DNA from: Halosolutus halophilus
Lineage (GTDB): Archaea; Halobacteriota; Halobacteria; Halobacteriales; Natrialbaceae
NCBI RefSeq assembly: GCF_022869805.1
Contig: NZ_CP094974.1
Location: forward strand, 2,108,001 to 2,172,000
Length of the DNA: 64,000 nt
Direction of reading: 5' to 3'
Positions 1-37,644 of the stretch are shown here, in pieces. A model generated the notes under the pieces. That model saw only the letters and a list, made by a program, of their open reading frames with translations. It was not told the origin of the DNA and did no database searches. Numbering within the stretch: the first letter of the stretch is position 1; each line of letters opens with the position of its first letter. The translations under genes and the position numbers were made by a program.

Positions 1-833
1 AGCGCTTCAACAGTATCTAGATTAGGGCTTGGGATCGGTGGATCATTGAGAAGAGCTGAATCTATGCCCTCAAAGCATGGCGGGTCAAGAAACAAATCAC
101 GTAAGTCATCTACAATTTCCGGCATTGGATCGTCAACACGATCATATACGGCTTCGAGTGATCCATACATTTCAAGTGCATCCATCGCAGATTCGGCACT
201 TACATTCTGAAGTCCATCGTTGTAGTCCGTTCCGACAAGAATGGCTATATCAACTAGTTCCTTTTGTGAAAACCCGGTTTCTGCCTCAAGCGCCCGCCGA
301 TTAGCTAACACTTCTGACCCCTGGCCAGTAAAATCCCGTATCTGGACTTCTGCACCAAATAGAAGCGTATCCCAGTCATTTGATAACACAAAATCAGCAT
401 AACCATCGCGGTTCAAAACGGCTGCGCCCGCTTCTCCGTCGAATGGATAGTCCTTAATAAACGGGATACCAAGAGCATCCAAAATTTTTGCTGTTGATTC
501 TTTGAAAAACCTGCTTTGTGGATAGGGCGTTGCCTCTGTTGACCGACCTGGATCAGTCATCTGCCGTACCGAACTTGAAAATTCTCCGTCATATATAAAT
601 ATCAGCGGAATATCAGATCGAATGTATTTCCTGACACCGCTAATCGTACCAATCACATGCGCTACACCATTTCCATTTGAATTTGACCACATGTGTGACG
701 GAACATTTGATTGAACGCCGGTAGCCATCTTCGTCACCCAATTCAGTGCATCTACAGCACCAACCCGACCAGAGTGCTTGGTAAGTTGTATTTCTGATGT
801 TGGAGCAAACCGCTCAATCCAGGGAGCGCCCAT
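1..833 (-). CDS. FEN-1/XPG-family structure-specific nuclease, 3' end outside the window
   Basis: The minus strand reads open from an ATG at 831-833 to the window edge, giving 277 visible residues. It resembles archaeal flap endonuclease 1, which cuts 5' flaps using two metal ions. Acidic residues fall in the expected order: Asp28 (AVDA), Asp82 (YDGE), Asp132/Glu134 (FDGEA), Asp153/Asp155 (SNDWDT) and Asp203 (GTDYNDG). The usual E-G-E pair is D-G-E here. The segment between Asp82 and Glu134 looks shorter than in standard FEN-1, so the helical arch may be reduced. It is the third gene leftward after the Argonaute and the helicase, with 155 bases before it. Base composition is clearly AT-richer than in neighbouring genes, which fits transfer. 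It is probably an accessory paralogue of the housekeeping FEN-1. The C-terminal PCNA-binding tail cannot be seen. Confidence 0.85.
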   Translation of the reverse strand, partial: MGAPWIERFAPTSEIQLTKHSGRVGAVDALNWVTKMATGVQSNVPSHMWSNSNGNGVAHVIGTISGVRKYIRSDIPLIFIYDGEFSSSVRQMTDPGRSTEATPYPQSRFFKESTAKILDALGIPFIKDYPFDGEAGAAVLNRDGYADFVLSNDWDTLLFGAEVQIRDFTGQGSEVLANRRALEAETGFSQKELVDIAILVGTDYNDGLQNVSAESAMDALEMYGSLEAVYDRVDDPMPEIVDDLRDLFLDPPCFEGIDSALLNDPPIPSPNLDTVEA

Positions 834-988
834 TGCTTTTGATAACGTTGTCCAGCACACAATCAATATTTTGGCTCTAGTGGATAACTGAATGACGCCG
901 ATATCAGATGCTAGGACCGGGAGTAATTCCTCCTTCTGTAGCAATAACGCAGTAGCGATCTTCTCACCGATCGAAACTACAGAGTCGG

Positions 989-3562
989 CTAGTTAAGAAT
1001 AGCGTCTAAGAGATCAACTGAAAGAACTTTGTCGAGATTACGATTCGCATTTCCACAATGCGGCGAATGGATACATGAGGGGCAGCCCTCCTCGCAACTA
1101 CACCCTTTTACAAGCTCCAATGTTTGCTCGAGTAACCCTTCCAACTGTTCATACGCACTTGCAGAATATCCTGCACCTCCAGGATAGATATCATGGACAA
1201 AGATCGTTCCTCGCACCGTCTGTGGATGAGCTACGATCGATAATCCACCGATATCTGCCCGGTCGCAAAGTACCTCACGCGGATACAGCGAAATAAGCGC
1301 ATGTTCGATCGCATGAAGGGCACTCAGGTATTCATCCTGTTCTTCAGTTTGCGCAGTGATGGATGCCTCGACTTCTGAGGGAACAGTGAAGAATAATCCC
1401 GTTGTCTCCACCGTCGCCGGAGGCAACGGCTTGTCGAACGTTTGTTCAGCAGGCGACTCATCATTCGGATGCGTGTAATGGAGGTATCCAGTGACTGAAT
1501 CTGCCACCGTCATTCGAGCAAGCGTCTTTTCGAACGCTACACCACCGTAGTCTACTGTTTCCGTGTTTACCGTATCCTCAATAGTTATCTCTTTTTCACG
1601 GAGCGGCCGAGTGTAAGCTGATGTCTCCACTGATTCAAAGTACGCCCGATCGCGCTCTAGATTCAACTCGGCGACTCTGTAAGACTGCTTCTGGTGGGTA
1701 TAGATGGCGTCAGGGTGAGCATCTCGCAGCGCTGCGCTATATTCGAGCGTCCCAAGGTGTTCGTCACGATTGCGGTCAATAAGCGTAATCTCACGCTCGT
1801 CGATACTTCGAATGTTCGTCTCCCACTGGACATTATCTTCAACAGCATTCCATCGGATCCGATCACCATCAACACGCCGGAGTCGCTCGGTTGCTTCGAG
1901 GTCGGTCACTATAGAAGGAAGATCCGGTCCGAAGTACTCTTCGTCATCTGGCGAGAGATAATGGTCTGAAGCAGCACAAACGACGTGATCGGGAAGGATC
2001 GCATCGTTCGAGGGATTGACCGTAGCTTGTTCAGCTCCGCTCTCGAACAGTTGACTTGGATCACGCAACAGATACTGATCTAATGGATTATCAGCTCCAA
2101 CCAGTACAACCAGACACGAGTCCTCGCCGCGGCCGGCCCGGCCTGCTCGCTGGAATGTACTCATCGACGTTCCCGGGTACCCATCGAGTAACACTACATC
2201 GAGCGTTCCGATGTCGATCCCGAGTTCAAGTGCGTTCGTACTCCAGACTCCACGTGCCTCTCCCTTTCGGAGGGCCATCTCGAGTTCTTGCCGACGTTCG
2301 CCGTCAAGAGCGGCGTGATAAGCGTAGATATCGTCAGCGAGGTCGTGATGACCCCACGACCGGAGTTCCTTGTCGGCCCAGTTCGCGTACTGCTCAGCCC
2401 CCTGTCGGGCCGATGTGAACACGAGCGTCTGATAGCCTCGTGCAACGAGGTCGCAGAACAGCCGTACTGACTCGATATGTTGTGAACGCCGTTCACCGCC
2501 GGCGACTTCGTCGTGGTGAGAAACGGTGCGTTCGTCTGGCCCAACTACAGATTGTCCAGCTGGTGGGGAAATTGGACTGGCCTGTCGGTTGTCGGTGTTC
2601 GATCGTGAGTGACTGTCCTCTTGGGAACCATTCGTCGAAGCCGCGATAGCGATAGGAGACTCTTCATTGTGACCAGCTTGAATCTCTCCATCAGGATCGA
2701 CGGCTGGATCGTCAATTGAGGCAGAGTCATTGGTCTCCTCTTTCAACGGCGGATTCCAGAATAGCCAGTGACGGTCGCCGGACGCACTCCGATCGTCGTT
2801 GACGAGTGTGAACGAATCCTCTGGTTGGGCCGTAACAGCTGCTGCATGTTCAACCGGATTTCCAATCGTCGCCGAACAACAAACGTACTCCGGATCCGTA
2901 TCGTAATGATCCAACAGTCGGTTCAGTCGCCGAAGGACCAGAGAAGCGTGACTTCCGAAGTAGCCCCGATACATATGGACCTCGTCGAGGACAACTGTCT
3001 CTAACTGCTGAAACAGCCACCGCCAGTGATTGTGTCCATGAGCAAACGGGATGAGACTTAGGTGAATCTGGTCGATAGTCGTCAGGAGAACGTCTGGTTG
3101 CCGCTGCTTGATAGCTCGTCGTTCGGACGTTTCTGTTTCGCCGGTCTGGACAGCAATATCAACGCTCTCACCAAACCTAAGTTCGCTAGTGACCTCACGA
3201 AAGGTCTGCTCCTGATCATTGATGAGGGCGCGATAGGGGGCAACGTAGAGTGTTTTTCCCGCTCCTTCGAGGCCGCGTTCGAGCGCTGGTACAGTGTACG
3301 TTAGCGTCTTTCCGGACGCAGTCGGTGTCGCAACTACGGTGTTGTACCCCTCTCGAACTGCCTGGATCGCTCGAACCTGATGCGTGTAAAGATTAGAGAT
3401 ACCCCTCTGCTCGAGTGCAGTCGCTACCGGTGGTTCGATCTCGAGGTCGTCTGTCGTAGCTTCCTGACCGTCAACGATCTCATGGTGAACGATCTGGTCG
3501 GAATAATAGCCTCGATCCTGGAGCCAAGAAATCATCTCCTCAATATCAGGCCGCTGGTCCAT
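989..3562 (-). CDS. Hrq1/MrfA-type DEAD/DEAH-box helicase with C-terminal cysteine cluster
   Basis: This 857-residue superfamily 2 helicase has a Walker A motif around residues 80-86 (Lys85 in PTASGKT), a DEVH box at 193-196, and a RecA2 domain with LVFTSARQ and QRAGRAGR motifs. The C-terminus carries the DUF1998-type cysteine cluster (C821, C823, C827, C830, with C836 nearby), as in bacterial MrfA and eukaryotic Hrq1, which unwind 3' to 5' in DNA repair. Residues of roughly 275-365 form an acidic, low-complexity insert between the two helicase lobes, probably a halophilic loop. The gene lies 215 bases after the Argonaute stop on the same strand and before the FEN-1-like nuclease, so the three may be co-transcribed. 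A role in opening DNA for those nucleases is inferred. Confidence 0.9.
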   Translation of the reverse strand: MDQRPDIEEMISWLQDRGYYSDQIVHHEIVDGQEATTDDLEIEPPVATALEQRGISNLYTHQVRAIQAVREGYNTVVATPTASGKTLTYTVPALERGLEGAGKTLYVAPYRALINDQEQTFREVTSELRFGESVDIAVQTGETETSERRAIKQRQPDVLLTTIDQIHLSLIPFAHGHNHWRWLFQQLETVVLDEVHMYRGYFGSHASLVLRRLNRLLDHYDTDPEYVCCSATIGNPVEHAAAVTAQPEDSFTLVNDDRSASGDRHWLFWNPPLKEETNDSASIDDPAVDPDGEIQAGHNEESPIAIAASTNGSQEDSHSRSNTDNRQASPISPPAGQSVVGPDERTVSHHDEVAGGERRSQHIESVRLFCDLVARGYQTLVFTSARQGAEQYANWADKELRSWGHHDLADDIYAYHAALDGERRQELEMALRKGEARGVWSTNALELGIDIGTLDVVLLDGYPGTSMSTFQRAGRAGRGEDSCLVVLVGADNPLDQYLLRDPSQLFESGAEQATVNPSNDAILPDHVVCAASDHYLSPDDEEYFGPDLPSIVTDLEATERLRRVDGDRIRWNAVEDNVQWETNIRSIDEREITLIDRNRDEHLGTLEYSAALRDAHPDAIYTHQKQSYRVAELNLERDRAYFESVETSAYTRPLREKEITIEDTVNTETVDYGGVAFEKTLARMTVADSVTGYLHYTHPNDESPAEQTFDKPLPPATVETTGLFFTVPSEVEASITAQTEEQDEYLSALHAIEHALISLYPREVLCDRADIGGLSIVAHPQTVRGTIFVHDIYPGGAGYSASAYEQLEGLLEQTLELVKGCSCEEGCPSCIHSPHCGNANRNLDKVLSVDLLDAILN

Positions 3563-3620
3563 TGAGTGTTCGATGGCTTTGTGACATTTTCAATGTTCGC
3601 CTATCGAATCGATGCCCTAC

Positions 3621-3636
3621 GACAGTTTGTACTGTC
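3621..3636. other. Short inverted repeat between Argonaute and helicase genes
   Basis: A 6-base perfect stem with a 4-base loop (GACAGT, TTGT, ACTGTC) lies 140 bases after the Argonaute stop and about 60 bases before the helicase start. It could be a processing or attenuation hairpin or a protein-binding site. No T-tract follows it in the direction of transcription, so it is not a convincing terminator. Confidence 0.3.
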
Positions 3637-3777
3637 AGAGAAGGGTTAGGTTCGGCATGAATTCGATCCTATTGTCCGTTTCGGCGGTGTCGATCGGAAT
3701 GTCAAATTGCATTTGTCGTGGAATGGTTGTCTGAACGTACTGATCCGGGTTGGTTCGAAGCTCACAGCAGCGCTGGC

Positions 3778-6342
3778 TCAGAGGTACGGGACACCGCGAA
3801 TGAGTTCTCCGTTGACGAGATATCCCTCTCGAGCGTGTTCGGCACAGCGATCGGCATAGTACGTCGTGATCGGTAAGCGTGTACTCCGCTGTGCACTCCC
3901 AATGTGGCTCTCGCTCAGCCAGTATACCTGTTCCAGTAACGTCCGCATTGGCGTCTCGCCTGCTCGTCGAACGACTCGAAGCGACCGTGGAGTCCCGAGT
4001 CCGTCGTCGTCATCGAACTCCGGACGTCCGGTCGTCGTGAGGAATCCGTAGTCGCCGCTCTGGGCAACGAAGAGTCGGCCCTTGTGATCGACCTCGAACT
4101 GGTCGTCCCGATAGACTGCCGCTCGCGGAGCACCGCTCTTTCGAACGTCGAGAATATCGATGTCGATGTCCGTTTCGTCGAACGGTTCGAGGATGGTATC
4201 GACGTCCTCGAAGAGGCGGCCATCGCGATGAATCACGATGTTATCGGGGGATTCACCCTCTTCACGTACGAACTCGCGATGGACATCCTTGAGAACGTCG
4301 ACGATAGCGTTCTCGTCGAACGTCTCGCCGGACTGGAGCGATTGCGACTTCGAGACGAAGACGGTCCCATCTGAGAGGACGACGTTTGCACTCGCACCGA
4401 GGAACTGTCCAGTCTCCGGGTCGCGCGTCGCGTCGAGGCCGACGAAGCAGTCAACATCGCCCGGCATCTCGTCGACGCGCCACGGAACGCCGCCGGCACC
4501 CGCGATCACCCCGAGTGCAGTGTTCCGGAGAATCCACCTATCGTCGAGGTTGTCTCCACGGACCATCTGTGACGGGATGGTCTGCTTACCAAGCGATTTC
4601 TTGAACTCGGGATATGGATCGTCGATAGTCCCGTCCCGGATGAAGTCGTTGTTCGGTGCGGGAACGACAGCGAGAACGAGGTCGGCATCGTCGACCGCTG
4701 CGGCCGTCGTATTGTACTCGATCGCGTTCCCTAGTTCGTACTCGTCGTAAGAGATGTCGTCCGGTGCGCAGCCGATGGACGTGAGCTGTCGTTCGAGTTG
4801 CCCTCTGAACGGCTCGAACTTGCCAGCGTAGTGTTCGGGGACGAGATAGTGGAGGTGGAATGACGATGGCCGGCGATAGATCCCGTATCGCTTCAGTCCG
4901 TTCTTTGGCAGGGTCGCAGTCTGATCGTCGCCGAATCGCAGGTTGTCCGAACGGTCGACCTCCGTAGACATGAACGAGATGTTCGGTCCGACGGGAGTCG
5001 ATTCGACCTGCGCGTCGACCTCGGAAAGCGAACCCAGATGAGCGATGAATTGCGTCGCCTTTCGGAACCGGTCGTCGGGAAGCATCTTGGCGGAACGGTC
5101 CCATTTACGGTGGAACGTCGGCGCGAGTTTCTTGACGATTTCCTTGCGCGGAGCGACCCGGAGTAACTGCGGAACATGAAGATTCGTCTCGTCGGAATTG
5201 GGATTGTACTGTATTTCGACGAGTTGCGGGTCTTCCGATCGAAGCCGATCGAGCATGTCATCGGAGATGCGGCCCTTTTGCTCGTACCAGTCGGCGAGCG
5301 ACTGATTCCCGAAGTCATCGACGGGATCGGTAAACGTTACGTCTGCAAACCCTTTGAGCCGGCCGTTACCCGGTTTTTCGTACGTTTCCGGATCGTGTTC
5401 GACAGGTGTATCGACGAGTTCGTCGACGGACGCATTGATTCGATCAACGTATTCGTCGACGGTGACCTGACTTCGGGCCTGGTGACTAACGTCAATCCCG
5501 GCGAACGCTTTGCCGGACGGGAGAATTTCGAGACGTGCAGTGTACGCGAGACACGCCTCGAAGAGGCCATCCTGCCCTGTGATGACCGGGTCCTGTGTTC
5601 GGATGCGATCGACGCGGCCGGTCTCGTACGTTTCATCGTCGACTGCCGTTTTGAAGGCTTGCTGGAGTAGCCGAATAAGGCGCTCGTTGTCTGCCTCGTT
5701 ATCTGCCTGAAGCGTCACTTGAGACTCGTCCGTTAATTCGAACGGTGTGGGATGCTCGTTCGTCAATCGACTGGTCGCGATAACCGAGAAAACGCCAGCG
5801 TGCGTGACGGCGGCGTTACTACACGATCGAAGATACGCAGCGAGGTTATACGTTACGTCCATCGGATCGTCATCGAACGGTCCGTCAGCCTCGATCCGAT
5901 ACTCGTAGACGTCTACGGTTTCGAAATTACGGTCGATCGGAAACAGTGAGAGGTAGGGCAGCCCATCTTCTAGGCTATCAAATAACTCATCAGTTGGTTC
6001 GACTGTCGTGGACTGCTGTGACTGATCGGAATCTGTCGGATTATCAATCGGGTCTGCATGCAGTCGTGACGAACCGTTCAGGCTCTTTTCGCCACGAAAT
6101 TCGTTGCCGCGCGCGTTCTCGAGTTCGTACCACCGACCGCGTTCCCATGCGAAGTCGCTCAGGGCGTTGTTCTTCCAGATCGTAAGCGGAAACTCGTTGC
6201 CGTCGGTGTCGCGAACGCGAAGTCGCTTTGCCATCTTCTTAGAGGGCCGGTCCAGTTCGGAAAGGACCTTGACCCGCATATCGATTCGTTCCTCGTCCTC
6301 GATATCGGACTGCGTCGGCATCGATTCGAACAAGATGTCCAT
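3778..6342 (-). CDS. Long prokaryotic Argonaute, NgAgo type, with N-terminal OB-fold-like domain
   Basis: This 854-residue protein is a long Argonaute, a nuclease that uses a short guide strand to find and cut nucleic acid. Residues of about 20-95 look like a single-strand-binding OB fold (VRDTDGNE, TIWKNN). NgAgo is reported to have the same arrangement. An acidic linker, N/PAZ-like regions, MID (about 540-625) and PIWI (about 630-854) follow. The PIWI catalytic set is complete: Asp637 (GLDA), Glu673 (SGET), Asp707 (IHRDG) and Asp831 (YYADR). In MID, Tyr577, Lys581 and Gln592 (PSQ) can be matched to guide-5'-end contacts, but the lysine usual just before the GG turn is Gly615, as in NgAgo. 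It heads the leftward gene set and is divergent from the metallo-beta-lactamase/AddAB-like set. Family assignment is firm from the C-terminal half; DNA guiding and target preference are inferred. Confidence 0.95.
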   Translation of the reverse strand: MDILFESMPTQSDIEDEERIDMRVKVLSELDRPSKKMAKRLRVRDTDGNEFPLTIWKNNALSDFAWERGRWYELENARGNEFRGEKSLNGSSRLHADPIDNPTDSDQSQQSTTVEPTDELFDSLEDGLPYLSLFPIDRNFETVDVYEYRIEADGPFDDDPMDVTYNLAAYLRSCSNAAVTHAGVFSVIATSRLTNEHPTPFELTDESQVTLQADNEADNERLIRLLQQAFKTAVDDETYETGRVDRIRTQDPVITGQDGLFEACLAYTARLEILPSGKAFAGIDVSHQARSQVTVDEYVDRINASVDELVDTPVEHDPETYEKPGNGRLKGFADVTFTDPVDDFGNQSLADWYEQKGRISDDMLDRLRSEDPQLVEIQYNPNSDETNLHVPQLLRVAPRKEIVKKLAPTFHRKWDRSAKMLPDDRFRKATQFIAHLGSLSEVDAQVESTPVGPNISFMSTEVDRSDNLRFGDDQTATLPKNGLKRYGIYRRPSSFHLHYLVPEHYAGKFEPFRGQLERQLTSIGCAPDDISYDEYELGNAIEYNTTAAAVDDADLVLAVVPAPNNDFIRDGTIDDPYPEFKKSLGKQTIPSQMVRGDNLDDRWILRNTALGVIAGAGGVPWRVDEMPGDVDCFVGLDATRDPETGQFLGASANVVLSDGTVFVSKSQSLQSGETFDENAIVDVLKDVHREFVREEGESPDNIVIHRDGRLFEDVDTILEPFDETDIDIDILDVRKSGAPRAAVYRDDQFEVDHKGRLFVAQSGDYGFLTTTGRPEFDDDDGLGTPRSLRVVRRAGETPMRTLLEQVYWLSESHIGSAQRSTRLPITTYYADRCAEHAREGYLVNGELIRGVPYL

Positions 6343-6433
6343 AACCCTAAATACTTTTCCATTAGCGTATTTCAGAAAACGCTATCTAGAAAATACCGTT
6401 CTCAAAAATCCTTATTGGGACTCGATATTACAT
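6343..6433. promoter_or_regulatory. AT-rich divergent promoter region with inverted repeat
   Basis: These 91 bases separate the divergent Argonaute and OB-fold genes and are much AT-richer than either. They contain the inverted repeat TAGCGT (6363-6368) and ACGCTA (6379-6384) with a 10-base spacer, a candidate operator. TATA-like A/T runs occur toward both genes, but none sits at a clean distance from the start codons, so promoter positions are not assigned. Confidence 0.45.
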
Positions 6434-6706
6434 ATGGATTCGACATTTTCGACTGCCGATTTCCTCGTCACAGCTGACTGGAAGAGGGAGTACGGGCTTT
6501 CGATTCCGATTCGCATTGATACGATCGAACAGACACCGGAACACGATGCGTGGGGGCAGATCGTCCACTGTTCGGATCTAAACGGAGTCCACGTGAAGGT
6601 CACCGTCTTCGCCGGCGAGGAACTCACTGAGTATTCGTTCGAAGTGGGGGAGTGGCATTTTCCATTTAGCGTGTTTTCAATGTCCCTAGTAGAAACAACT
6701 ATATGA
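6434..6706 (+). CDS. Small OB-fold-like protein related to the Argonaute N-terminus
   Basis: A 90-residue reading frame starts at the ATG at 6434, just past the divergent promoter. By eye its residues of about 25-75 follow the same pattern as the N-terminal OB-like domain of the neighbouring Argonaute: a D-x-N/D-G turn, a strand ending in V/IW-or-VF, a short acidic helix, then G-E/R-W. A single-strand-binding protein is therefore plausible. The last 15 residues do not match, and the DNA there repeats a sequence found near the Argonaute start (see findings), so the gene may be 3'-truncated. It ends 21 bases before the metallo-beta-lactamase gene, on the same strand. It could be a separate Argonaute subunit or a leftover of a partial duplication. 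Confidence 0.55.
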   Translation: MDSTFSTADFLVTADWKREYGLSIPIRIDTIEQTPEHDAWGQIVHCSDLNGVHVKVTVFAGEELTEYSFEVGEWHFPFSVFSMSLVETTI

Positions 6707-6727
6707 CTAGAGCATGTTATCGGTAGT

Positions 6728-9013
6728 ATGGAGATTTCTTATGAGCATGCGAATCCGAGGGCGGGCAACGAGTCGTTTCTTCTTCGGATCGAGCAAGAAT
6801 GCAAGCTGCGGACTCCTTGTATTCTCGTGGATGCGGGAGACGGTGTCGACACATCGACGCTACTCGGTGACGACGAATACTTGGCAGCGATACTCCTCAC
6901 GCACGCGCACCTCGATCACTACCAATCGCTGGACGAAGCCCATCGTGACGGCGCACCGATTTTCACATCTCCCGGAACGGCAGCGATTCTCGAGGACGTC
7001 TTAGCAGAGGGTGCACGGCATCATTCGATGTCAGATACGGACACGATACTCGAGCGCGTCGAAGCGATCGACGACTGGGTCGACGTCGTCGGTGATGACA
7101 TCAGCGTGGCCCCCGTGCCAGCGGGGCATACGCCAGGAGCGTGCGGATTCCTGATTCGAGCCCGTGATAGCCAAGAGAGTTTCCGTGCGCTCGCTACCGG
7201 AGACTTCACACGACGCGAGGCTGGCGGATACGTCGGATTCGATCCAGAGCAGTTCCTCGAGGTCGATGCACTGTTCCTCACGGCCGCGACGAACGATGGC
7301 GTCGACGAGACGATCACGGGTATCGTCGAAACGCTCGCCGCTCGTGCGAACGCCGGATCGAAGACGCTCTGTACGGCAAGCGGGCTGACTGGCGTTCATC
7401 TGGCGACGCTTCTCGGTTCGATCGAGCACGAACTCGATTACGCGATCCCAGTTACCCTCGTCGGACAGGTCGCGAAACTCTACGATGCGCTGGAATACGA
7501 CTATCCGAACGTAGATACCGTCCCAGAGTTTGCGATTCCTCACGACTGCCTCGAGGAAGGGACCGTAACTATCGCTGGGCCGGAGGTTCCAGTCGAAGGA
7601 AGTAGCGAACGACTCTTCGAGGCGATTCGTGACGACGGGAACGCGACGTTGGTACAGGTACAAGGAGGAACCACGACCGCGAAAGACGCTGGCGATTTCG
7701 CTGGAACCGTTTCGTCGTTCGCGTTCTCGAATCATCCGACTGAAGCGATTCTCGACGAGATCGTCGAAACGATCGCTCCGACTCACGTCGTCGTTTCGCA
7801 CCAGCGTGGCCGATCTCTGGAGCGGTACAAGGACAAGTGGGACGCATATACGTGGGCAACCGGCAGTTCCGGGACGGAGCAGCTGTATCTAGATGGAAGC
7901 TTCTGTGCCCCGGGTTGGATCGGCGATGCCACGAAGCGACGCGTGCGCAATCGCGACAAGCAACGAAGTACGATCGACCTCGGAGACGGAGTCCTGCAAG
8001 CAGCAGCGAGTGTTCCGAAACTCGAGCGGCGAGAAACGGCCGACCTCGAACGAGAAGGTGTCGATGTCGCTCGACTCCGTGAAGAACTCCATATCGGGCA
8101 CAGCGAAGAGGCAATGGCGACTACTACCGTGGAGCCCGAAGCGGAGACAGATACCACGCAGAACGCACGCGGCGCTCCTGTTTGTGTGACCGATGGGGGA
8201 TTGTATCGAACCGTTGGCCAGCCATCCAGTGACAATAAACACATCACACCAGATCCGACAGAGGTAGCTGACGAAATCGCTAATCCGACCGTCATCAACG
8301 TGTTGTGCGACTCGGCGTCAGCGGAGAGCGATACCTCCCCGGACGAGACTACTGCCGAACGGACACCGAAAGCCGATACGAAGGAAACCGGCGGAAAAGA
8401 AACCAACGGCGGTGAAGAGGATGAATCCGCTACCGCGACGGAAACCGCCGACGAAACGACGGAGATCTCGTACACGGAACGAACTGGGAGCGAGGCCGAG
8501 GACGAGGAGACGTCAGATTCGGATTCGACAATGAGTGAAACCACGACTGAGGAGGCGACAGGAACGGTGACCGACGAACCAGTAACTGAAACCGTTCGAA
8601 TCGATCCCGCGATTCGAACACTCGCCGAACATCGCGCTAGTAGCGAGGGCGAATCGACCGAATCGTTCGTCGAGTCGGCAGTCAGAACATACCTCGCGGA
8701 AGCGCTGCGCGGCAACGAACCGTGGTCCGAAACGGCAGGAGTCACCGAACGAGAACTCACGATCGATGCCGATCCAGCACTCGAGAAGCTCATCGCAACT
8801 ACTGCTGCGAACGACGACACATCGGACGCGGAGTCCTTCGTCGTCCGGACGCTCTGCGATGCGATCGGTCTCGACGTCGATGATCGCGAGCTACCGGTTC
8901 GTGCCCTCGAGGAAATGGATGAACTCATCGTCGCGACGACCGAGAACGAGAACTGTCCCCACGAAACGACGGACGAAGTCGTTCAGGCGGCTCTCGAGCG
9001 ACGAGTCTTGTAA
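6728..9013 (+). CDS. Beta-CASP-like metallo-beta-lactamase protein with RHH-like tail
   Basis: The 761-residue protein begins with a metallo-beta-lactamase fold: the zinc motif THAHLDH (His59, His61, Asp63, His64), His134 (AGHTPG) and Asp159 (TGDF). A region of about 175-400 resembles the beta-CASP cap of nucleic-acid-cutting members and ends with a VVSHQ motif. A long acidic low-complexity linker (about 470-630) follows. The last 120 residues hold three segments of about 40 residues shaped like ribbon-helix-helix domains: a short strand, a helix with A-L/M-x-x-L, then F-V-x-x-A/T-L. This suggests an RNA or DNA nuclease tethered to DNA or to partners. It is the first large gene of the rightward set, with 90 bases before the ATPase. 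Nuclease activity rests on family features and is not proven; hydrolase-only members exist. Confidence 0.8.
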   Translation: MEISYEHANPRAGNESFLLRIEQECKLRTPCILVDAGDGVDTSTLLGDDEYLAAILLTHAHLDHYQSLDEAHRDGAPIFTSPGTAAILEDVLAEGARHHSMSDTDTILERVEAIDDWVDVVGDDISVAPVPAGHTPGACGFLIRARDSQESFRALATGDFTRREAGGYVGFDPEQFLEVDALFLTAATNDGVDETITGIVETLAARANAGSKTLCTASGLTGVHLATLLGSIEHELDYAIPVTLVGQVAKLYDALEYDYPNVDTVPEFAIPHDCLEEGTVTIAGPEVPVEGSSERLFEAIRDDGNATLVQVQGGTTTAKDAGDFAGTVSSFAFSNHPTEAILDEIVETIAPTHVVVSHQRGRSLERYKDKWDAYTWATGSSGTEQLYLDGSFCAPGWIGDATKRRVRNRDKQRSTIDLGDGVLQAAASVPKLERRETADLEREGVDVARLREELHIGHSEEAMATTTVEPEAETDTTQNARGAPVCVTDGGLYRTVGQPSSDNKHITPDPTEVADEIANPTVINVLCDSASAESDTSPDETTAERTPKADTKETGGKETNGGEEDESATATETADETTEISYTERTGSEAEDEETSDSDSTMSETTTEEATGTVTDEPVTETVRIDPAIRTLAEHRASSEGESTESFVESAVRTYLAEALRGNEPWSETAGVTERELTIDADPALEKLIATTAANDDTSDAESFVVRTLCDAIGLDVDDRELPVRALEEMDELIVATTENENCPHETTDEVVQAALERRVL

Positions 9014-9103
9014 TTGATAGTAGTACAGTCCATCTACAGGAAAATCGAAATAGCGCAATTGAGATGCACGAATATTTATGCTGACCGCTAAAAAGGAGAG
9101 ACA

Positions 9104-10792
9104 ATGACCGACGCAGGTAGTGAAGAGGAGTTTATCGCCGACGCCAAGCGCCACAACGAGTGGTGGAGCGAGGATCGACCGGCGACAGTCGTGGAAGCTG
9201 CCTCACTCACTCCGCGTTCCGACTTTCACCAACTTCTCAAAACGGTTGACGAAGCGCGACAAAACGGCACGGAGAATCTCGTCTACCAGATCTACGGACA
9301 GACCGGGATCGGAAAGACGACGCTCTTCCAGCAGCTCATCGCGGCACTGCTGGACACGACCGACTTTCCGGAAGGCGGACGCGATCACGAAATCGTCGGA
9401 TCGGTATCGCCACGTCAGATACTATATGTCCCACTCGAAGCGTCCCTCTATCACTTAGAGCGCCCAGACGATGCGATTACACGGTTGAAGCAAGTCGTAG
9501 ACTACTTCGACTCACACGTTGCTCCGCGGCGAGGTCGAAAGTACATACTCCTGGACGACGTCGGTGCGCTCAATCTCGAGGAAGACGAACGCGATGAGCT
9601 TCTCGATCTTGTAAACCAACGAACGTATCTGTTTCTCACGGGGATCGTCGCTTCGCAAGTCGATCTCAAGACGGGATCGGATGCCGACGAAATAGACGCG
9701 TTCGAAGGCCCCACACCAGTACTCCCGATGAAATTCGTCGATACGGTTCAACATCGTGCCGCCGAGGGCGGATTCCAGGTAGATTTCGGCTCCGAATTCC
9801 GGGAGCGGCTCGAAGCATATCAGTCGGACGGATTACCCGGACCGGCACCGATCAAGGCTGTTCGACGGTCGCTCGATTTGAGAGACGGTGGAGCCAGTAT
9901 CGATGACGCGATCGCGTCCCTCGACGAGCTCTATTTCGAACACCTCTCACCGAGTCAGCGAGACGATCTCCACGATGCGTCGCGTGAGTACTTGCAGATC
10001 GGTGGGACGGTACACCGCGCTGGTGACGCGTCGGTACGAAATGAACTCACCAAATCACACTTTTTGCTGTATCTATACAAGGAGTTAGCGAAGCACGAAT
10101 CCATTCAAAAGCCCGAAAATCTCCATAAACTCAGTTCGATCGCGGCGAGTCAAGCCGGCGAAGAACTTCGGTACACAGATATCAGTGATCGAATCGGTGT
10201 CGATCGCCGGACGGTCGACAGTTATCTCGAGGCATTGGATGAGGGAATCGCAGTCTCTGAGTCTCACGATTACTCGCTTCGTCGGTATCGGCGAACTCGT
10301 CTCTATCTCCGCAATCCCCGGCACGTTGTTTTGCTCTCACAGCGTCAGGAACACTATGGATTCGAGGAGTACAGTCACGAAAGCACACTCAATCATGAGT
10401 TCGAGTACAAATTAGCCAGAACGGTCGCGTTCGACCATGCGAAGCGTCTCGCGTTCACTGTCGGCGCCTACGACGTCGAATACTGCGAGACGGAGTCCGG
10501 ACTCGTAGATTACGTCCTTCAGCGCGTGGGCCACGTTCTGCCGTTCGTCCTCTCGTACCATCCCTATACAGACGCTGCCGAACAAACCGCGGTCGAATTC
10601 GATCCTTCTGCCGGACAACATACGAAACCCGATAGCGAGGAGCTACAGGACTACAACTACGAAGCACCATGTCGGTTCATCATCACAGATAGTCTTCCGA
10701 AGGACGTACTCGAGCAGGGATCACTACGTGTTTCCCGTGACGATAACGATATCTGCTACCTGCCGTACTGGGTATTCTTACTGATCTGTTGA
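9104..10792 (+). CDS. AAA-type ATPase with winged helix and degenerate nuclease-like tail
   Basis: This 562-residue protein has Walker A GQTGIGKTT (Lys71) and Walker B YILLDD (Asp151, Asp152). A helical lid and a winged-helix region follow (about 345-385, with IGVDRRTVDSYLEAL). The C-terminal third resembles the DUF4143 fold found in COG1373-type ATPases (EYKLA, then a VDYVL strand). In that family the VD-strand is often followed by an E-x-K nuclease-like motif; here the place is taken by PFVLSYHP, so a catalytic nuclease is unlikely. The gene lies between the metallo-beta-lactamase gene and the AddAB-like pair on the same strand. It may act as an ATP-driven switch or loader for the complex; that is inferred. 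The last residues (VFLLIC) are unusually hydrophobic. Confidence 0.8.
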   Translation: MTDAGSEEEFIADAKRHNEWWSEDRPATVVEAASLTPRSDFHQLLKTVDEARQNGTENLVYQIYGQTGIGKTTLFQQLIAALLDTTDFPEGGRDHEIVGSVSPRQILYVPLEASLYHLERPDDAITRLKQVVDYFDSHVAPRRGRKYILLDDVGALNLEEDERDELLDLVNQRTYLFLTGIVASQVDLKTGSDADEIDAFEGPTPVLPMKFVDTVQHRAAEGGFQVDFGSEFRERLEAYQSDGLPGPAPIKAVRRSLDLRDGGASIDDAIASLDELYFEHLSPSQRDDLHDASREYLQIGGTVHRAGDASVRNELTKSHFLLYLYKELAKHESIQKPENLHKLSSIAASQAGEELRYTDISDRIGVDRRTVDSYLEALDEGIAVSESHDYSLRRYRRTRLYLRNPRHVVLLSQRQEHYGFEEYSHESTLNHEFEYKLARTVAFDHAKRLAFTVGAYDVEYCETESGLVDYVLQRVGHVLPFVLSYHPYTDAAEQTAVEFDPSAGQHTKPDSEELQDYNYEAPCRFIITDSLPKDVLEQGSLRVSRDDNDICYLPYWVFLLIC

Positions 10793-10962
10793 CTATCTCT
10801 ATACCGTCTTCTCTCCGCCTTCTTCGAATAATTACTCATCTCAGATATCGTTCCGAGAATCTCGATCGAACCCACTGAGGGACGAGAGAATTTCTCTGGA
10901 ATACCCGTCTAGGACAGTCGACATACAAACTTATTGTCCGATAATCCAACACGCTATGCATC

Positions 10963-13623
10963 GTGACATTCAAGCAGTCGAAACCGATCGATCGGCTGTA
11001 TCACGAGGTCGCCGACTACGACCTCGTGATCGTCCCCGACTCGCCGCTCGCAGACGCCCTCAATCGACGCCTCCAACGGCCTCATTTCGGCCCGTTCGCG
11101 ATCACACCGCGACGGCTTGCGACGCGGCGTCGGGAGACCGCGGAGGACCGGACTGCGTTCCTCGAGGTGATCGACAGGACCGAGCTGGGCTGGAAGGAAA
11201 TCGCCTACAGCGTCGGCAACGTCCTCCAGTGCTGGGAGTATCGAGGAAGCGCCGACGCAATCCTCGAGTACGAGGCGTTCGACACGCCAGCGACCAGAAC
11301 CGTCGTCGACATCATTACCTCGCTGCAGACGTCTTCGCGGCTCCTTGCAGACTACGAGATCGACGTCGATAGGGACGAATCGGTCGCAGTCGTTGGCGAA
11401 CGTCAGTTGACGAACCTCGAACGCTCGATTCTTCCCGACGAATACGATTCGATCGACCGATTCACCGAGGACCTATTCGAACTGCCTCCGTTTCGAATCT
11501 TCGAGTCGCCGGCGGCGATCGTTGATGCGGTTCTCGACACCGTCACGCGCGACAATGCGAACAATATCGGGATCGTCCTCGATGCGAGCAGCGAGTATTC
11601 ACCGCTCGTCGAGTCGGCGCTCGAAACGGCTGGGGTTCCGTACTACGGCGGCCCTGGCTTCATGGACAAACGTGACCACCGTGCGTTCGTCCAGTTACTT
11701 CGGTGTACGACGGCCGGATCCGATACCCGCGTTCGCTCCGTAAAGCCACTGCTCTCGTGTCTCGATGCAACGGTGCCCGTCGAGCACGACGAAAAGCGAC
11801 TCACCGACGTCGACGAGCCCGAGATCGATTGGCTGCGCGAGTTCAGCGAGCGTGCGGACACGCTCACCTTCGCGAAGGCGCTCAATGCATACGAGGAACG
11901 CACGGGACGAACGCTCGAGGCGTTCCGCGAGGAACTCGAGCGACTCGGACTACTCGCAGAGTCGATCACGGCCGACGGGATCGATCAACTCGTCTTCTAT
12001 CTGGAGACCTACGAGGTGCCGATCGATCGGGACAACGAGGGGGTCCTGCTGGCGGATGCGAAATCAGCGTCGTTCGTCGACCGACCGGTCGTCTTCTATT
12101 TGGGACTCGACGAAGACTGGACCCACGACTCACCGAACCGGCCATGGGTCGATCGCGACGAGGAGTACGAGCGAAACATCGACGGCTTTCAATCGCTCCT
12201 CCAGAGCGGCGTCGAACGGCACTATCTCGTGCAGGATACGGCCGGTGGCTCACCCGTCACACCGTGTCTGTACTTCGACGAATTGCTCGATAGCGAGTTC
12301 GAACGATTCAGCGATCTCGCGTCGATCCGGCACGCGCGGACGGGGCGAACGACTGGTGACGGCTTTGAACGGGAGCCGCTGGATACAGCCGTCGAACCCG
12401 AACCTGTCGAGACGGTCAGTCAGTCGAGTCTGAACACCTACGCGAACTCTCCGCGAGACTACTGCTTCGGACGACTCGTCGAGACGCCGGATAAGCACTA
12501 TTTCGTCGAAGGGAACATCTTTCACGACTTCGCCGAGTTCGTCGTCAATCATCCCGGGTTCGTCGATGAGACGCGACTCGAGGAAGTTGTCGAGGTCATG
12601 ATTGAAGAAACGCGCGCGTTTCATCGGAGTACCGACCTTGAGACGCAGCGAACGCGATATCGAATCGGCCTCGAGACGATCTGCGAGTACCTCGCGGAAC
12701 ACGCGCCAGTCGACACGGCGTTCCTGACGCCGTCGAGCGGCTGGGGAGCGAATTTCTTCGCGGAATACTTCGATCGACCAGTCGACTCGCCGGTGACCGA
12801 ACGGTGGTTCGAAGACGACGAGCTTCGGCTCAAGGGGAAGATCGATCTCGTGCAGTCACCGACGCAGTTAGTCGATTTCAAGAGCGGGAGTCGAAACGCC
12901 GCGACACAGGTAACGAAACACGCCTCGATCGACGACCCGAGCGACAAGCCGGATTTTCAGGCGTTGTGCTACCTCACGCACTGGCGGCAGCACCAGCCCG
13001 ACGAGGGCCTCGAGTTCACGTTCTGCCACTTCCTCGAAACGCTCGACGACGTCGTTACCGGCAACGGCTCCCTCGAGGACTGTTTGACGACGGTGACGTA
13101 CCATCCGATTGCGTTCGACGAGTTCGTCCAGTCCCGAACGGTCTTCGACGAACTCCGGGACGATGCCGCCAACAAGTGCAATAAGACGTTCTCGAAGACC
13201 GATTACGAGACGTATCTGACCGTCTTCGATACCCACGAGGTTCCGAGAACGCGGGACGCTGACGAGATGACCGACTCCCCCTTCGGCGAGGCGCTCCTCG
13301 AACGACTGATCGACGACGTTGGAGACTACAAGTACGTCAGGAAGGGCTGTACGCAAGCGTTCAGACATCTCTGCAGCTATCGGAAAGAGGGATACTTCGT
13401 CGAAGATCTCGATGAATTCGAACGCTTCGTCGACGAGCAACTCGGGGAATTGAACCGCTACCGTCGCGGCGACGGCCGATTCCCGGTCGAAGGCCGTGCC
13501 GGCGAACCGAACTACCGCTACGTGGACAACCGCGATATGCTTCTCACCGAACCCCGCTCCGCGCGAAACGACTCACAGAATCCGACTGCGACCGGAGCTG
13601 AAGACGCGGAGGTGCAGCGATGA
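10963..13623 (+). CDS. AddB-like protein: inactive helicase fold plus PD-(D/E)XK nuclease
   Basis: The 886-residue protein starts with GTG at 10963. No Walker A motif is seen, yet the middle follows the superfamily 1 helicase order seen in AddB: a strand-helix motif at about 200-235 (GIVLDASSEY, then GVPYYGGP) and a VVFYLGLDEDW segment near 385. The C-terminal part is a RecB/Cas4-type nuclease: His521 (GNIFHDF), Asp628 (GKIDLV), Asp638 and Lys640 (VDFKSG), then a QALCY segment. I did not see the iron-sulphur cysteine pattern of AddB clearly. The gene overlaps the next one by four bases (ATGA), so the products are probably made together as a heterodimer. AddAB/RecBCD-type enzymes unwind and digest DNA from double-strand ends. 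Confidence 0.85.
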   Translation: MTFKQSKPIDRLYHEVADYDLVIVPDSPLADALNRRLQRPHFGPFAITPRRLATRRRETAEDRTAFLEVIDRTELGWKEIAYSVGNVLQCWEYRGSADAILEYEAFDTPATRTVVDIITSLQTSSRLLADYEIDVDRDESVAVVGERQLTNLERSILPDEYDSIDRFTEDLFELPPFRIFESPAAIVDAVLDTVTRDNANNIGIVLDASSEYSPLVESALETAGVPYYGGPGFMDKRDHRAFVQLLRCTTAGSDTRVRSVKPLLSCLDATVPVEHDEKRLTDVDEPEIDWLREFSERADTLTFAKALNAYEERTGRTLEAFREELERLGLLAESITADGIDQLVFYLETYEVPIDRDNEGVLLADAKSASFVDRPVVFYLGLDEDWTHDSPNRPWVDRDEEYERNIDGFQSLLQSGVERHYLVQDTAGGSPVTPCLYFDELLDSEFERFSDLASIRHARTGRTTGDGFEREPLDTAVEPEPVETVSQSSLNTYANSPRDYCFGRLVETPDKHYFVEGNIFHDFAEFVVNHPGFVDETRLEEVVEVMIEETRAFHRSTDLETQRTRYRIGLETICEYLAEHAPVDTAFLTPSSGWGANFFAEYFDRPVDSPVTERWFEDDELRLKGKIDLVQSPTQLVDFKSGSRNAATQVTKHASIDDPSDKPDFQALCYLTHWRQHQPDEGLEFTFCHFLETLDDVVTGNGSLEDCLTTVTYHPIAFDEFVQSRTVFDELRDDAANKCNKTFSKTDYETYLTVFDTHEVPRTRDADEMTDSPFGEALLERLIDDVGDYKYVRKGCTQAFRHLCSYRKEGYFVEDLDEFERFVDEQLGELNRYRRGDGRFPVEGRAGEPNYRYVDNRDMLLTEPRSARNDSQNPTATGAEDAEVQR

Positions 13624-16499
13624 CGACACCGATCGAAGAGCGGTCAGCAACCGAGACGCCGTCGCCGAACGACCACCAGCGGGAACTCATCGAGAGTACG
13701 GACGGACTGTATCTCGTCGACGCCGGCGCCGGGACCGGGAAGACGTTCACCGTGACCCGGCGCTACGCGAATATCGTCACACAACCCGACGTCGAACCTG
13801 ACGATATCCTCCTGATCACGTTCACGCGCAACGCGGCGACGGAGATGAAAGATCGGATCGTCGCCGAGTGTGACTACGATATGCGGGCACTCAACGACGC
13901 GCCGATTCAGACGTTCCACAGCCTGTGTAACGACATCCTCGATCAACACGGCTTCTATGCGCCCACCTATCTCGGGATCGACGACGCAATCACCGGCTCG
14001 ACGCGGATCCTCGAGAACGAGACCATCGAAGGGGAGTACTTTCAGGAGTTCGTCGATCAGTTCAGCGACGATCACGACGAATACGCCGACCTCCTCCGGT
14101 GTCTCTCCGATCCGACCGAACTGCTCGATCTACTCAACAATCTCGCGTCGAAGGGGATCTTTCCGACCGCAGACGGCTGGTATCGCGATGGCAGGGAGGC
14201 TCTCGAGGGAGATTTCGAGGCGTTCAAGGAGGCATTCGACGAGGTGAATCAGCCGCGAAACGGCGGTAGCAAGCAGTCGACACTACGTTCCCGTCTCGGT
14301 CGCTACGGGAGGAACAAGTGCTACCTGCCCGACGCTCCTGATCGGAGCGAACTCCGCGGCGAGTACGGCTCGAAGGCCGTCCCCGAGGACGTCGCCGAAC
14401 GAGTCTTCACCGAGGACCGCGACCACCTCATCGCGTTCGTCCACGATGTCTACTTCGAGTATCTCGAGTTCGCACTCGGACGGAACTACCTGAACTTCTC
14501 GTTCCTCCAGCTGTTCGCGTTCGTCCTGTGCTGTGAGGACGGCGAGCTCCGCGAGGACCTCGAGTTCGAGTACGTGATGATCGACGAGTTCCAGGACTCG
14601 AGCGAGATCCAGTTCAAACTCGCGTTGCTCCTGTCGGGGACGGACAATTTCTGCGTCGTCGGCGACTGGAAACAGAGCATCTACTCCTTCCAGTACGCGG
14701 CGGTCGAGAACATCACCGAGTTCGAGTCCCGCTTGGAGCGCTTCGCCGGCGAGTTGAATGATGACGCCGACCGGGTAACGTTCCCGCTCGAGCCCGTGAC
14801 GACGATCGAACTCGAGCGGAACTACCGCTCGACGCAGTCGATCCTGGATTTCTCCGAGCACGCGCTCGTGACTCCAGGGAGCAGCAACGAGTCGGTCGAT
14901 CGGGAGTCGGTCCTCGAGGACGTCGTCTCGCTGACCGCGAACACCGACCGTGATCACTCACAGATCGAGGCTCTTCAGCACACCGACGAGCACGAGGCGA
15001 TCCTCACGAAGATCCAAGAGATCGTCGACAACGCCGAGTACGCGGTCGAAGATGACGGCGAGTTGCGGCCGCCGACGTACGGGGATATCGCTGTTCTCAC
15101 TCGAACCCGTGATTTCGGCCGCGAGTTGCTCTCGACGGCCGAGGCGTACGAGTTCCCGATGGCCTACGAGGGCGGGATCGAACTCTTCCGGACCGATCAA
15201 GCCAAACTCCTGCTCGCATGGCTGCGCATCCTCGAGGACGGGTCGGACGCCGAACGGGGCTGGGCAGTCGTGCTCGAGCGCGCCGGCTATACGCTCGACG
15301 AGATCGATCACATCCTCGAACACGCCGCCTATCCCGACGAGATGGAGGCATTTCGCGCCGAACTGTCGACACTCGAGACCCACACGGCGGTCGCTCGGCG
15401 CGTGTTCGATCGCTACGGCTACGACGGGGCGACGGCGGACGTCGTCCTCACGACGGTCCAGTCGATCTATGGGTCGACGACGATGACGCGTGGAGACCTG
15501 ATTTGGATCATCGAACGGGGGACCGAGGACGGATACACCGAGGAAGTACAGGCAGCTGCGGGCGCCGATTCGGTCACCGTCCAGACGGTCCACTCTGTCA
15601 AAGGCCTCGAGTATCCGATCGTGATCTTCGGGAACATGAACAACGGAAAGTTCCCGCCCGGCGGCGGCTCCGAGGGCACGATCATGTACTCCGAGACGAC
15701 TGGGCTCCGCCAGCGGAAGTGTTACGACGACGCCCACGGCGACCCGTACGTCTACGACAACTGGCGAGCCGACGTCCTCCGCAAATGCCGACCAACCGAG
15801 CACGACGAAGAACGGCGCCTCCTCTACGTCGCAATGACGCGGGCGGAAAACCACCTCCTGTTCACAGGGGGCGACGAACCGAACACCTTCCTCGAGGAGT
15901 TGCCAGTTGACGTTGAGTCGCTCGAGCCGGTCGTCTCAGCAGTAGATGTCGATGAGACGAATCAGACGCAACTCGATGTCGACATTCCTGATCCAGCGGG
16001 GCCAGAAGGGTATTCGCCGCACTCGCTGATGGACGACAGTATCTTCGAGGATGTGTCGGGCGGAAGAGGGATGGATTTCGGCTCGCAGGTTCACGAGTTC
16101 GCCGAGGACTACGCACTTGACAAGGACGTAACTCCCGACAGTGACGACGAGAAACACATCGAGGCGTTCCTCGACAGTCTTCCGGGAGAACTGCGCGTCG
16201 AGGAGCGAGCCTACCTCCCGCTCGAAATCGATGGTAAGCAGGTCACGCTCTCAGGTGTGATCGATCTGGTTCACGTGACGGACGACACCGTCGAGATCGT
16301 CGACTTCAAAACGGACCTCACTCGGCATGCTGAGACCGAGTACCGGATCCAACTCAGCGTCTACTACCACGTCCTCGAAGACTGGTTCAGTAATCGGACC
16401 GTCACTGCATCGATCTTCTATACGGCCGAAGACGCTCAAGTAGAGATTGACCCATTATCGGAGGCAGAACTCGCGGCACTCGCTAGCGACCAACGATAA
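13620..16499 (+). CDS. AddA-like UvrD-family helicase with PD-(D/E)XK nuclease
   Basis: The 959-residue protein is a full superfamily 1A helicase: Walker A GAGTGKT (Lys41), TFTRNAATEM, DEFQDSS (Asp322, Glu323), GDWKQSIYSFQ, ERNYRST, TVHSVKGLEYP and LLYVAMTRAENH. A C-terminal RecB-like nuclease follows, with Asp882 (GVIDLV), Asp895 and Lys897 (VDFKTD), and a QLSVYY segment. It is shorter than bacterial AddA (about 1,200 residues). Together with the overlapping AddB-like gene it should form an end-resecting helicase with two nuclease sites. Haloarchaea normally rely on Mre11/Rad50 and HerA/NurA for resection, so this looks like an accessory machine. Only 34 bases separate it from the HNH pseudogene downstream. 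Confidence 0.92.
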   Translation: MTTPIEERSATETPSPNDHQRELIESTDGLYLVDAGAGTGKTFTVTRRYANIVTQPDVEPDDILLITFTRNAATEMKDRIVAECDYDMRALNDAPIQTFHSLCNDILDQHGFYAPTYLGIDDAITGSTRILENETIEGEYFQEFVDQFSDDHDEYADLLRCLSDPTELLDLLNNLASKGIFPTADGWYRDGREALEGDFEAFKEAFDEVNQPRNGGSKQSTLRSRLGRYGRNKCYLPDAPDRSELRGEYGSKAVPEDVAERVFTEDRDHLIAFVHDVYFEYLEFALGRNYLNFSFLQLFAFVLCCEDGELREDLEFEYVMIDEFQDSSEIQFKLALLLSGTDNFCVVGDWKQSIYSFQYAAVENITEFESRLERFAGELNDDADRVTFPLEPVTTIELERNYRSTQSILDFSEHALVTPGSSNESVDRESVLEDVVSLTANTDRDHSQIEALQHTDEHEAILTKIQEIVDNAEYAVEDDGELRPPTYGDIAVLTRTRDFGRELLSTAEAYEFPMAYEGGIELFRTDQAKLLLAWLRILEDGSDAERGWAVVLERAGYTLDEIDHILEHAAYPDEMEAFRAELSTLETHTAVARRVFDRYGYDGATADVVLTTVQSIYGSTTMTRGDLIWIIERGTEDGYTEEVQAAAGADSVTVQTVHSVKGLEYPIVIFGNMNNGKFPPGGGSEGTIMYSETTGLRQRKCYDDAHGDPYVYDNWRADVLRKCRPTEHDEERRLLYVAMTRAENHLLFTGGDEPNTFLEELPVDVESLEPVVSAVDVDETNQTQLDVDIPDPAGPEGYSPHSLMDDSIFEDVSGGRGMDFGSQVHEFAEDYALDKDVTPDSDDEKHIEAFLDSLPGELRVEERAYLPLEIDGKQVTLSGVIDLVHVTDDTVEIVDFKTDLTRHAETEYRIQLSVYYHVLEDWFSNRTVTASIFYTAEDAQVEIDPLSEAELAALASDQR

Positions 16500-16533: not shown

Positions 16534-17523
16534 ATGCCTCTAGGTCGCCTCCGCTCGATCGCCCCGATGTTCGGTTGGGCAACAAGCTATGTCGACACAC
16601 TCGATACAATCATCGACTACGTCGACGAACAGCACCCTACGATGGACGAACTCGTTGGCTGGCATCGCGGGAGTTTCGCCCACGTCTCGAGCCGGGACTC
16701 AATCATGCGCCGCGTCGAGTACCTCGAGGATGTCGGATTTCTCACTGGTGAGAACGGCGTCTGGACACTCGGTCCCGAGGGTGAGCGATACCTCACTGAC
16801 CGCTCGACAGAGACGCTCCTCGAAATCATGTGCCGGTGAAATGTCGGCCTGCGAAGCCTGCTCCATGCGCTCTCAGTTGGGCCGATGCCGATCGACGAAA
16901 TCAGCCGCCAGCAACTCAATACACATCCCGAGATCGGTTGGAATACGGAGAACCCCGACATGGCACTCCAGCGCGTTAACTGGCTGCGAAGTCTCGGCCG
17001 TGTCCAGGAAGACGGCGATCAGTATCGACTCACCGAGGACGGGAGACAGTTCACCGACAACGCTGTCGAGACGTGGGCAGAGACTGCTGCATCAACTGCA
17101 TCCAGTACAGCGGATCCAATGACTGCGGGAACCTACAAGTCGACGGTCAATGCACGAGCTATCGATCCGGAGTTCAGGGCAACTGCATTAGCGAGGTTCG
17201 ACCATACGTGTCCGATCTCAGATGTGGATCATCCAGGGCTACTGGACGTCGCGCACGTCCTCTCGTGGAGCGACTATCCGGAGCACCGAGCTGACTTATC
17301 GAACGTACTGGCACTCAGTAAGACGCATCACGCAGCCTTCGACCAAGAACTCTTCACCATCGATCGGGGCAACCGGCTGCGAGTGAACCCGAATTTCGAT
17401 ACGGAGAGTGACCTGCTACGGCAGACGATTCTTGATCAAGCCGGGGAGCGACTCCCGCTACCAGATGGGTGCGTCGACACGGATTACGTCGCAAAGCATA
17501 ACGCGGCGCTTGCGTGGGTGTAG
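16534..17523 (+). pseudogene. HNH endonuclease with two winged helices, interrupted by in-frame TGA
   Basis: One reading frame runs from the ATG at 16534 to the TAG at 17521, broken only by TGA at 16837-16839. The first part (101 residues) is one winged-helix unit. The part after the stop continues in the same frame with sensible protein sequence, a second winged helix, and a C-terminal HNH nuclease (TCPISD, LLDVAHVLSW, HHAAFD). The two winged helices share a D-E-L/I opening and an R-V-x-x-L-x-x-x-G pattern, so they look duplicated. A single change such as CGA or TGG to TGA explains the break. An internal ATG at 16885 could restart translation and give a 212-residue nuclease. The gene lies 34 bases after the AddA-like gene. 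C-terminal relatives occur at 22.5 and 27.4 kb. Confidence 0.75.
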
Positions 17524-18643: not shown

Positions 18644-18925
18644 TACACGCAGATCATCTATTAGTCAAATATACTTTGTGTACTGGTTATCGCTACGGAG
18701 TCGGGAACCGTAACGAATCGTCTGTCTTGTACTAGCCCAAGCACCTCACGAAGATGAAAAGTCCACGAGTCGCTTGGTAGGATAGGTGGATCTCGAAACG
18801 ACGATCAAACGTAGTAGTTGTCTGATTTATGAATTAGTGTTTGCAATGTCTACAAGAAATTGGCCTATCTTCAGGCTCTACAAGAACAAGTTGGGCGTTT
18901 ACCAGTAGTTGGTAACGCGATTACT

Positions 18926-19354: not shown

Positions 19355-19363
19355 TTGCCGGCG

Positions 19364-19885: not shown

Positions 19886-20047
19886 GGCTCCCTGTAATAG
19901 ATACAGCGCAATAAATCTACCTTTGAGTAAAATAATTGACCTCGGTCTTTTCGACTGCAGAACTGAATAAAGAAATCATATTACCAACTACTGATATTGT
20001 TACTCCACGATATATACAAGTCAGTTAGCCATAGAGTCGAGTTACGG

Positions 20048-32008: not shown

Positions 32009-32050
32009 ACGCAACCAACGAATACGTTCAAGAAAAATGTACGGTGACAG

Positions 32051-37560: not shown

Positions 37561-37644
37561 TCAAATGTGATTCAGCTTCGGAAATATATAAATGCCTTGC
37601 TTGAATCCCCAGAGAGGATATTGACGAGACTTATGACTTAAAGG

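Follow-up and report, generated by a model that had tools for sequence, protein, structure and literature searches.

Does a haloarchaeal Argonaute come with its own machinery for opening DNA, or do such genes only share an island with it? The question is raised by a 64,000 nucleotide stretch of Halosolutus halophilus (contig NZ_CP094974.1, positions 2,108,001 to 2,172,000), which in its full length is called the window here and which belongs to a genome of 5.06 Mb on a single contig. An Argonaute, an MrfA-like helicase and a FEN-type nuclease are there divergent from a small OB protein, a metallo-beta-lactamase protein, an AAA ATPase and an AddB-like/AddA-like pair, and the open reading frames, strands and order given for these two arms in the initial annotation are confirmed. 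From this arrangement it had been proposed that the locus is a self-contained interference system, in which a built-in AddAB-like machine provides the resection for the Argonaute. The general linkage stands, in that a resection machine built into the loci of haloarchaeal Argonautes is well supported, but the AddAB of the window itself does not fit the proposal.

The linkage was assessed at 39 Argonaute loci and one Argonaute remnant (G290), drawn from 292 Halobacteria genomes and scored within 15 kb using profiles of the neighbouring gene families. A complete end-processing machine is present at 30 of the 40 loci, against one of 20 random 20 kb windows from the same genomes (p 1.7e-7), and AddAB-like pairs or full sets of Mre11-, Rad50-, NurA- and HerA-like proteins (MRNH, with all four present) are seen at 28/40 against 0/20 (p 1e-7), although the size match is inexact, the Argonaute windows being of up to 30 kb plus the gene. 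The one set found in the random windows is an MrfA-exonuclease pair. Pairs of AddB-like and UvrD-nuclease proteins, of three families (AddB2 with a Cas4-like protein, AddB3, and the AddB of the window), occur at 17 of the loci and the full MRNH set at 13, and MrfA stands beside an RNase_H_2 exonuclease at seven of the Argonaute loci other than that of the window. Three of the ten loci that have no machine are at contig ends, and another, in G238, has a PD-(D/E)XK domain fused to an SF1 helicase. The linkage of the metallo-beta-lactamase and Rad50-like genes to Argonaute was counted inside the examined loci only. Since the profiles came from the surveyed loci, to which their sensitivity is therefore tuned, a fairer check is given by a second set of 13 haloarchaeal loci, taken from GTDB r220, and AddAB or MRNH is complete in 8 of these. 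The machine families were seen at none of 14 Argonaute loci from outside the haloarchaea. At the Argonaute loci of G052 (L102) and G203 a large helicase is found in place of a resection machine, with DrmE (DISARM) also present in G052.

BREX PglZ loci served as a defence-island control by comparison of coordinates, and here AddB2 is near 11 of the 40 Argonaute loci and none of the 61 PglZ loci (p 1.5e-5). The operon-like order Ago-PLD-AddB2-Cas4-like-UvrD is present in nine genomes from five families, with four-base overlaps within the AddB2-Cas4-like-UvrD part. The Argonaute tree requires at least four changes for AddAB and at least four for MRNH; in the clade of the window alone, G000 has AddAB, G141 has MRNH, and G091, G240, and G186 are without a complete set within 15 kb. 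That unrelated machines of the same function have been recruited repeatedly suggests that selection acts on the end-resection function and not on the machine family. Almost all genomes possess a housekeeping NurA, from which the defence-type copies differ; G003, G065, and G083 have two NurA copies each, the Argonaute-linked one being distinct from the housekeeping one.

The one property shared by these unrelated machines (AddAB, Mre11-Rad50-NurA-HerA, and MrfA plus exonuclease) is degradation from DNA ends, which would also be expected if the machines acted after the nick or cut made by the Argonaute, with the helicase-nuclease degrading the cut DNA and clearing the products but supplying no guides. 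The published APAP system, in which a haloarchaeal long-A prokaryotic Argonaute (pAgo) is linked to the PLD protein AgaP, likewise depends on its added nuclease for action on plasmids (PMC11442185). On the other side, CbAgo is reported, as cited in PMC9040764, to cooperate with RecBCD and to depend on the break-repair machinery for guide loading. Action after the cut is a possibility put at a little below an even chance. The likeness to CbAgo, as far as that citation goes, is that an Argonaute works with a resection machine of the host, which is the housekeeping RecBCD in that case, whereas the machines considered here are encoded beside the haloarchaeal Argonautes.

For the AddAB of the window, DNA comparison reveals a block of 5.56 kb running from about 10,907-10,922 to about 16,463-16,483. 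Because its borders are sharp in eight other genomes, where the flanks are unrelated, the AddAB is a cassette (10,907-16,476, forward strand). The neighbouring block of Argonaute, OB, metallo-beta-lactamase and AAA genes (3,669-10,792) is common to the window and G091 at 87-92%, and that of the metallo-beta-lactamase and AAA genes alone (6,664-10,792) is common to the window and G085. The AddB family of the window is present in 128 of the 292 genomes, mostly without Argonaute, and a co-occurrence search of the haloarchaeal genomes places it within 15 kb of Argonaute at one of 40 loci, the window's own copy only, which is at the level of chance (0.16 expected, P 0.14). This is less often than beside BREX PglZ, within 15 kb of which it is found at no fewer than 6 of 61 loci, a lower bound in that only part of the AddB list entered the coordinate comparison. 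The genomes with AddAB of this family beside PglZ are G031, G050, G079, G142, G170, and G242, and it may be a BREX companion.

With sharp borders, a presence in 128 genomes and a single occurrence near Argonaute, the AddAB is rejected as a conserved Argonaute partner by descent, and the built-in partnership that had been proposed was abandoned, the homologues being mostly apart. Relationship of the window AddB to the Argonaute-linked AddB2 was also rejected, there being no detectable homology, though both profiles are shallow. The AddAB has probably arrived next to the AAA gene as a defence cassette in its own right. These same observations favour the explanation of a self-sufficient cassette, for defence or repair, which shares the island with the Argonaute by chance and does no joint work with it. 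Against this, two related AddAB cassettes have scars immediately beside them, one of Argonaute and one of MrfA. In G251 AddB is preceded, at a distance of about 106 bp, by a divergent piece of Argonaute of 23 amino acids, the orientation being that of the window; taken alone this is weak (E 0.001). In G255 an 84 bp MrfA end remains 56 bp past AddA and the cassette. Other AddAB-like families are, moreover, clearly tied to Argonaute and AAA. Chance sharing of the island is an evenly balanced proposition.

The AddA-like protein (13,620-16,499, forward strand, overlapping the AddB-like gene by 4 bases) is, like the AddA of bacterial AddAB, a UvrD/SF1A helicase with a C-terminal RecB-type PD-(D/E)XK nuclease. 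Its Pfam matches are to UvrD-helicase (E 2e-48) and PDDEXK_1 (E 3e-9), the solved AddA 3u44 is matched by profile (E 7e-20), and the motifs are invariant. The AddB-like protein (10,963-13,623, forward strand) has a C-terminal nuclease domain found by Pfam, with an intact PD-(D/E)XK motif, but differs from bacterial AddAB in having no solved AddB among its PDB sequence matches. No Walker A was seen in its N-terminal half, and its AlphaFold model is too poor to use, with a predicted local distance difference test score (pLDDT) of 43. AddB is expected to carry a four-cysteine iron-sulphur pattern; this is absent across eight homologues, in which only C90, C435, and C739 are invariant, far apart from one another.

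The Argonaute itself (3,778-6,342, reverse strand) adds a new member to a group already known. It is a long-A (NgAgo-type) protein of 854 amino acids with the catalytic tetrad D637-E673-D707-D831 intact in PIWI, which is the DEDX of active long-A pAgo, here DEDD. It is full-length, with the PADLOC pAgo profile (1052 bits) covering residues 84-854 and the alignment to CbAgo (E 4e-46) residues 326-835, and the nearest PDB structures are those of CbAgo and CpAgo. NgAgo has an N-terminus of the OB/repA type. The Argonaute of the window is approximately 37% identical to a group of 890 amino acid Argonautes, presumably the NgAgo-like group. This degree of identity would set it apart from the NgAgo of Natronobacterium gregoryi (PMC9040764), which is likewise a long-A haloarchaeal Argonaute. 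In its 91% and 73% identical relatives a PLD gene is inside the operon, which places it in the haloarchaeal APAP group of catalytically active Argonautes. While a PLD gene adjoins the Argonaute in G091 and in most OB-type loci, there is none within 15 kb of the Argonaute in the window, and no AgaP-like gene was found in a search of its own genome, made with no positive control.

The first 120 residues of the Argonaute form an OB-type domain (residues 8-119, 5,986-6,321, reverse strand), which recurs in the stand-alone OB protein of 90 amino acids (6,434-6,706, forward strand; E 6e-10 with the profile of the domain) and in OB-exonuclease proteins of related loci. Between the 90 amino acid protein and the N-terminus of the OB-exonuclease from Argonaute-less loci the identity is 52-55%. 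The domain also gives weak-scoring matches to numerous further haloarchaeal proteins, in the size ranges of about 340-400 and 1500-1700 amino acids, and it is perhaps a shared single-strand-binding module.

The AAA ATPase (9,104-10,792, forward strand; AAA_14 and DUF4143-like) adjoins the OB-type Argonautes and is their closest constant partner. Its model (pLDDT 75) has an AAA part, a winged helix and a PD-(D/E)XK-like C-terminal region, and a fold search gave generic AAA+/ORC/Apaf-like matches only. In eight genomes the AAA gene is next to AddB2 with no Argonaute nearby, most of these having the Cas4-like and UvrD genes, several an OB-exonuclease and PLD, and some MrfA-type helicases related to that of the window. 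One such Argonaute-less locus, which several genomes have (L064-L069, L194-L198), carries AAA, AddB2, Cas4-like, UvrD-nuclease, OB-exonuclease, PLD, MrfA, RNase_H_2 and a second MrfA, and looks like a defence system of its own. It could be, then, that what stays constant is a unit of AAA ATPase, resection machine and PLD, to which Argonaute is one of several exchangeable add-ons. The lone OB protein retained in the window, with its resemblance to the N-terminus of the OB-exonuclease, agrees with this. The AAA-Argonaute link is, however, equally tight, with an AAA gene within 15 kb at 21/40 Argonaute loci and 0/61 PglZ loci, and the chance that Argonaute is such an add-on is a little below even. 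Also tentative, and to a similar degree, is the broader reading that haloarchaeal Argonautes belong to a modular defence family, in which an AAA ATPase goes together with a resection machine from any of several unrelated kinds (AddAB-like, Mre11-Rad50-NurA-HerA, or MrfA plus nuclease), with either of two OB-domain single-strand effectors (Argonaute or OB-exonuclease) and with PLD, the machine being dedicated to supplying the Argonaute with single strands and guides.

The preferred reading, for which the chances are about even, is that the locus is an anti-mobile-element island around the OB-domain long-A Argonaute and the AAA ATPase, with a machine that opens or resects DNA for the Argonaute. 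The catalytic motifs of Argonaute, AddA, and AddB are intact, and in haloarchaea the Argonaute is closely and repeatedly linked to AAA and some helicase-nuclease. The AAA ATPase would gate the system, and the helicase-nuclease, here MrfA with FEN and possibly also AddAB, would open the invading DNA at ends or nicks, exposing single strands on which the Argonaute would be kept by its OB domain, the small OB protein perhaps acting likewise. Carrying short fragments derived from that DNA, the Argonaute would cut complementary strands, which would create new ends for the helicase-nuclease. FEN, the metallo-beta-lactamase protein or AddAB may replace the PLD nuclease (AgaP) missing from the window. 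In this scheme resection would feed guides to the Argonaute.

Several points weigh against this reading. There are few random control windows, and in length they fall somewhat short of the Argonaute windows. The AddAB cassette, besides its wide occurrence mostly without Argonaute, brings its own upstream stretch, and in G091, the closest relative with an Argonaute at 91%, the 15 kb range includes no complete machine and AddAB is 22 kb away. AddB2, AAA and the defence-type NurA are each found also without Argonaute. A machine may act before the Argonaute, providing guides, or after it, in clearing. For NgAgo a need for RNAs in DNA interference has been reported (PMC9040764), and in one APAP system it is the catalysis of AgaP, not that of the Argonaute, that restricts plasmids, the catalysis of the Argonaute acting on a virus (PMC11442185).

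The MrfA/Hrq1-like DEAD helicase (989-3,562, reverse strand; Pfam DEAD, Helicase_C, WHD_HRQ1, and MZB) resembles that of the MrfA-MrfB (YprA-YprB) repair pair in its MZB zinc domain, but its neighbour is a FEN/XPG nuclease and not an RNase_H_2 exonuclease. This FEN-1/XPG-family nuclease (P0010, 344 amino acids, 1-944, reverse strand; XPG_I E 2e-15, Sulfolobus FEN-1 E 1e-21), in which the acidic motifs were seen by eye, crosses the left edge of the window, the whole gene being L002:9910-10944. Past it, at L002:4590-9479 on the reverse strand, is a Sacsin/HATPase-NO VEIN protein of 1629 amino acids that matches PADLOC TmtA. Three further Argonaute loci (G053, G158, and G262) have relatives of this protein beside the AAA gene. 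The metallo-beta-lactamase protein (6,728-9,013, forward strand; Lactamase_B_2) has the HxHxDH motif; it had been labelled beta-CASP-like, which is not supported because its alignments to beta-CASP RNases cover only the metallo-beta-lactamase part.

Directly after the AddAB cassette, at 16,885-17,523, is an HNH_2 endonuclease-like gene, with a second of the same family at 27,668-28,165 and relatives near several Argonaute loci; this protein cluster was first read as an insertion sequence, which was rejected. A likely 1.1 kb insertion sequence is present at 18,900-19,996, where 34 nt imperfect inverted repeats surround open reading frames of 142 and 173 amino acids. Further along are a HEAT-repeat protein gene overlapping an ADP-ribosylglycohydrolase gene (29,388-32,014) and a coiled-coil AAA_23 protein with RdfA (rod-determining factor A; 35,626-38,256), the latter pair also being near AddAB in G254 (L061). 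Between 42,000 and 44,000 the G+C climbs from 0.50-0.58 to 0.60-0.67, which suggests that the low-G+C island ends near 42-43 kb of the window.

The linkage of Argonaute to resection extends the published APAP system. The APAP paper mentions only a helicase near some of the operons, and no AddA, UvrD, HerA, Mre11, or ATPase (PMC11442185). In a literature search with most subscription papers and bioRxiv preprints outside its scope, no description was found of a haloarchaeal Argonaute with NurA, HerA, Mre11, AddB, or UvrD, nor of an AAA partner of Argonaute or the exchange of resection machines. UvrD-helicase proteins with nuclease motifs were already listed in 2018, when pAgo operons were surveyed and most pAgo groups were left without a defined operon composition (PMC6299218); a composition of this kind emerges here when function, and not orthology, is the basis on which the haloarchaeal loci are compared. 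If the reading is true, the repeated recruitment of unrelated resection machines as gene neighbours, extra to the housekeeping copies, would show which class of partner matters to the way in which prokaryotic Argonautes acquire guides and gain access to double-stranded DNA, and the haloarchaea would offer natural two-part systems of Argonaute and machine for testing.

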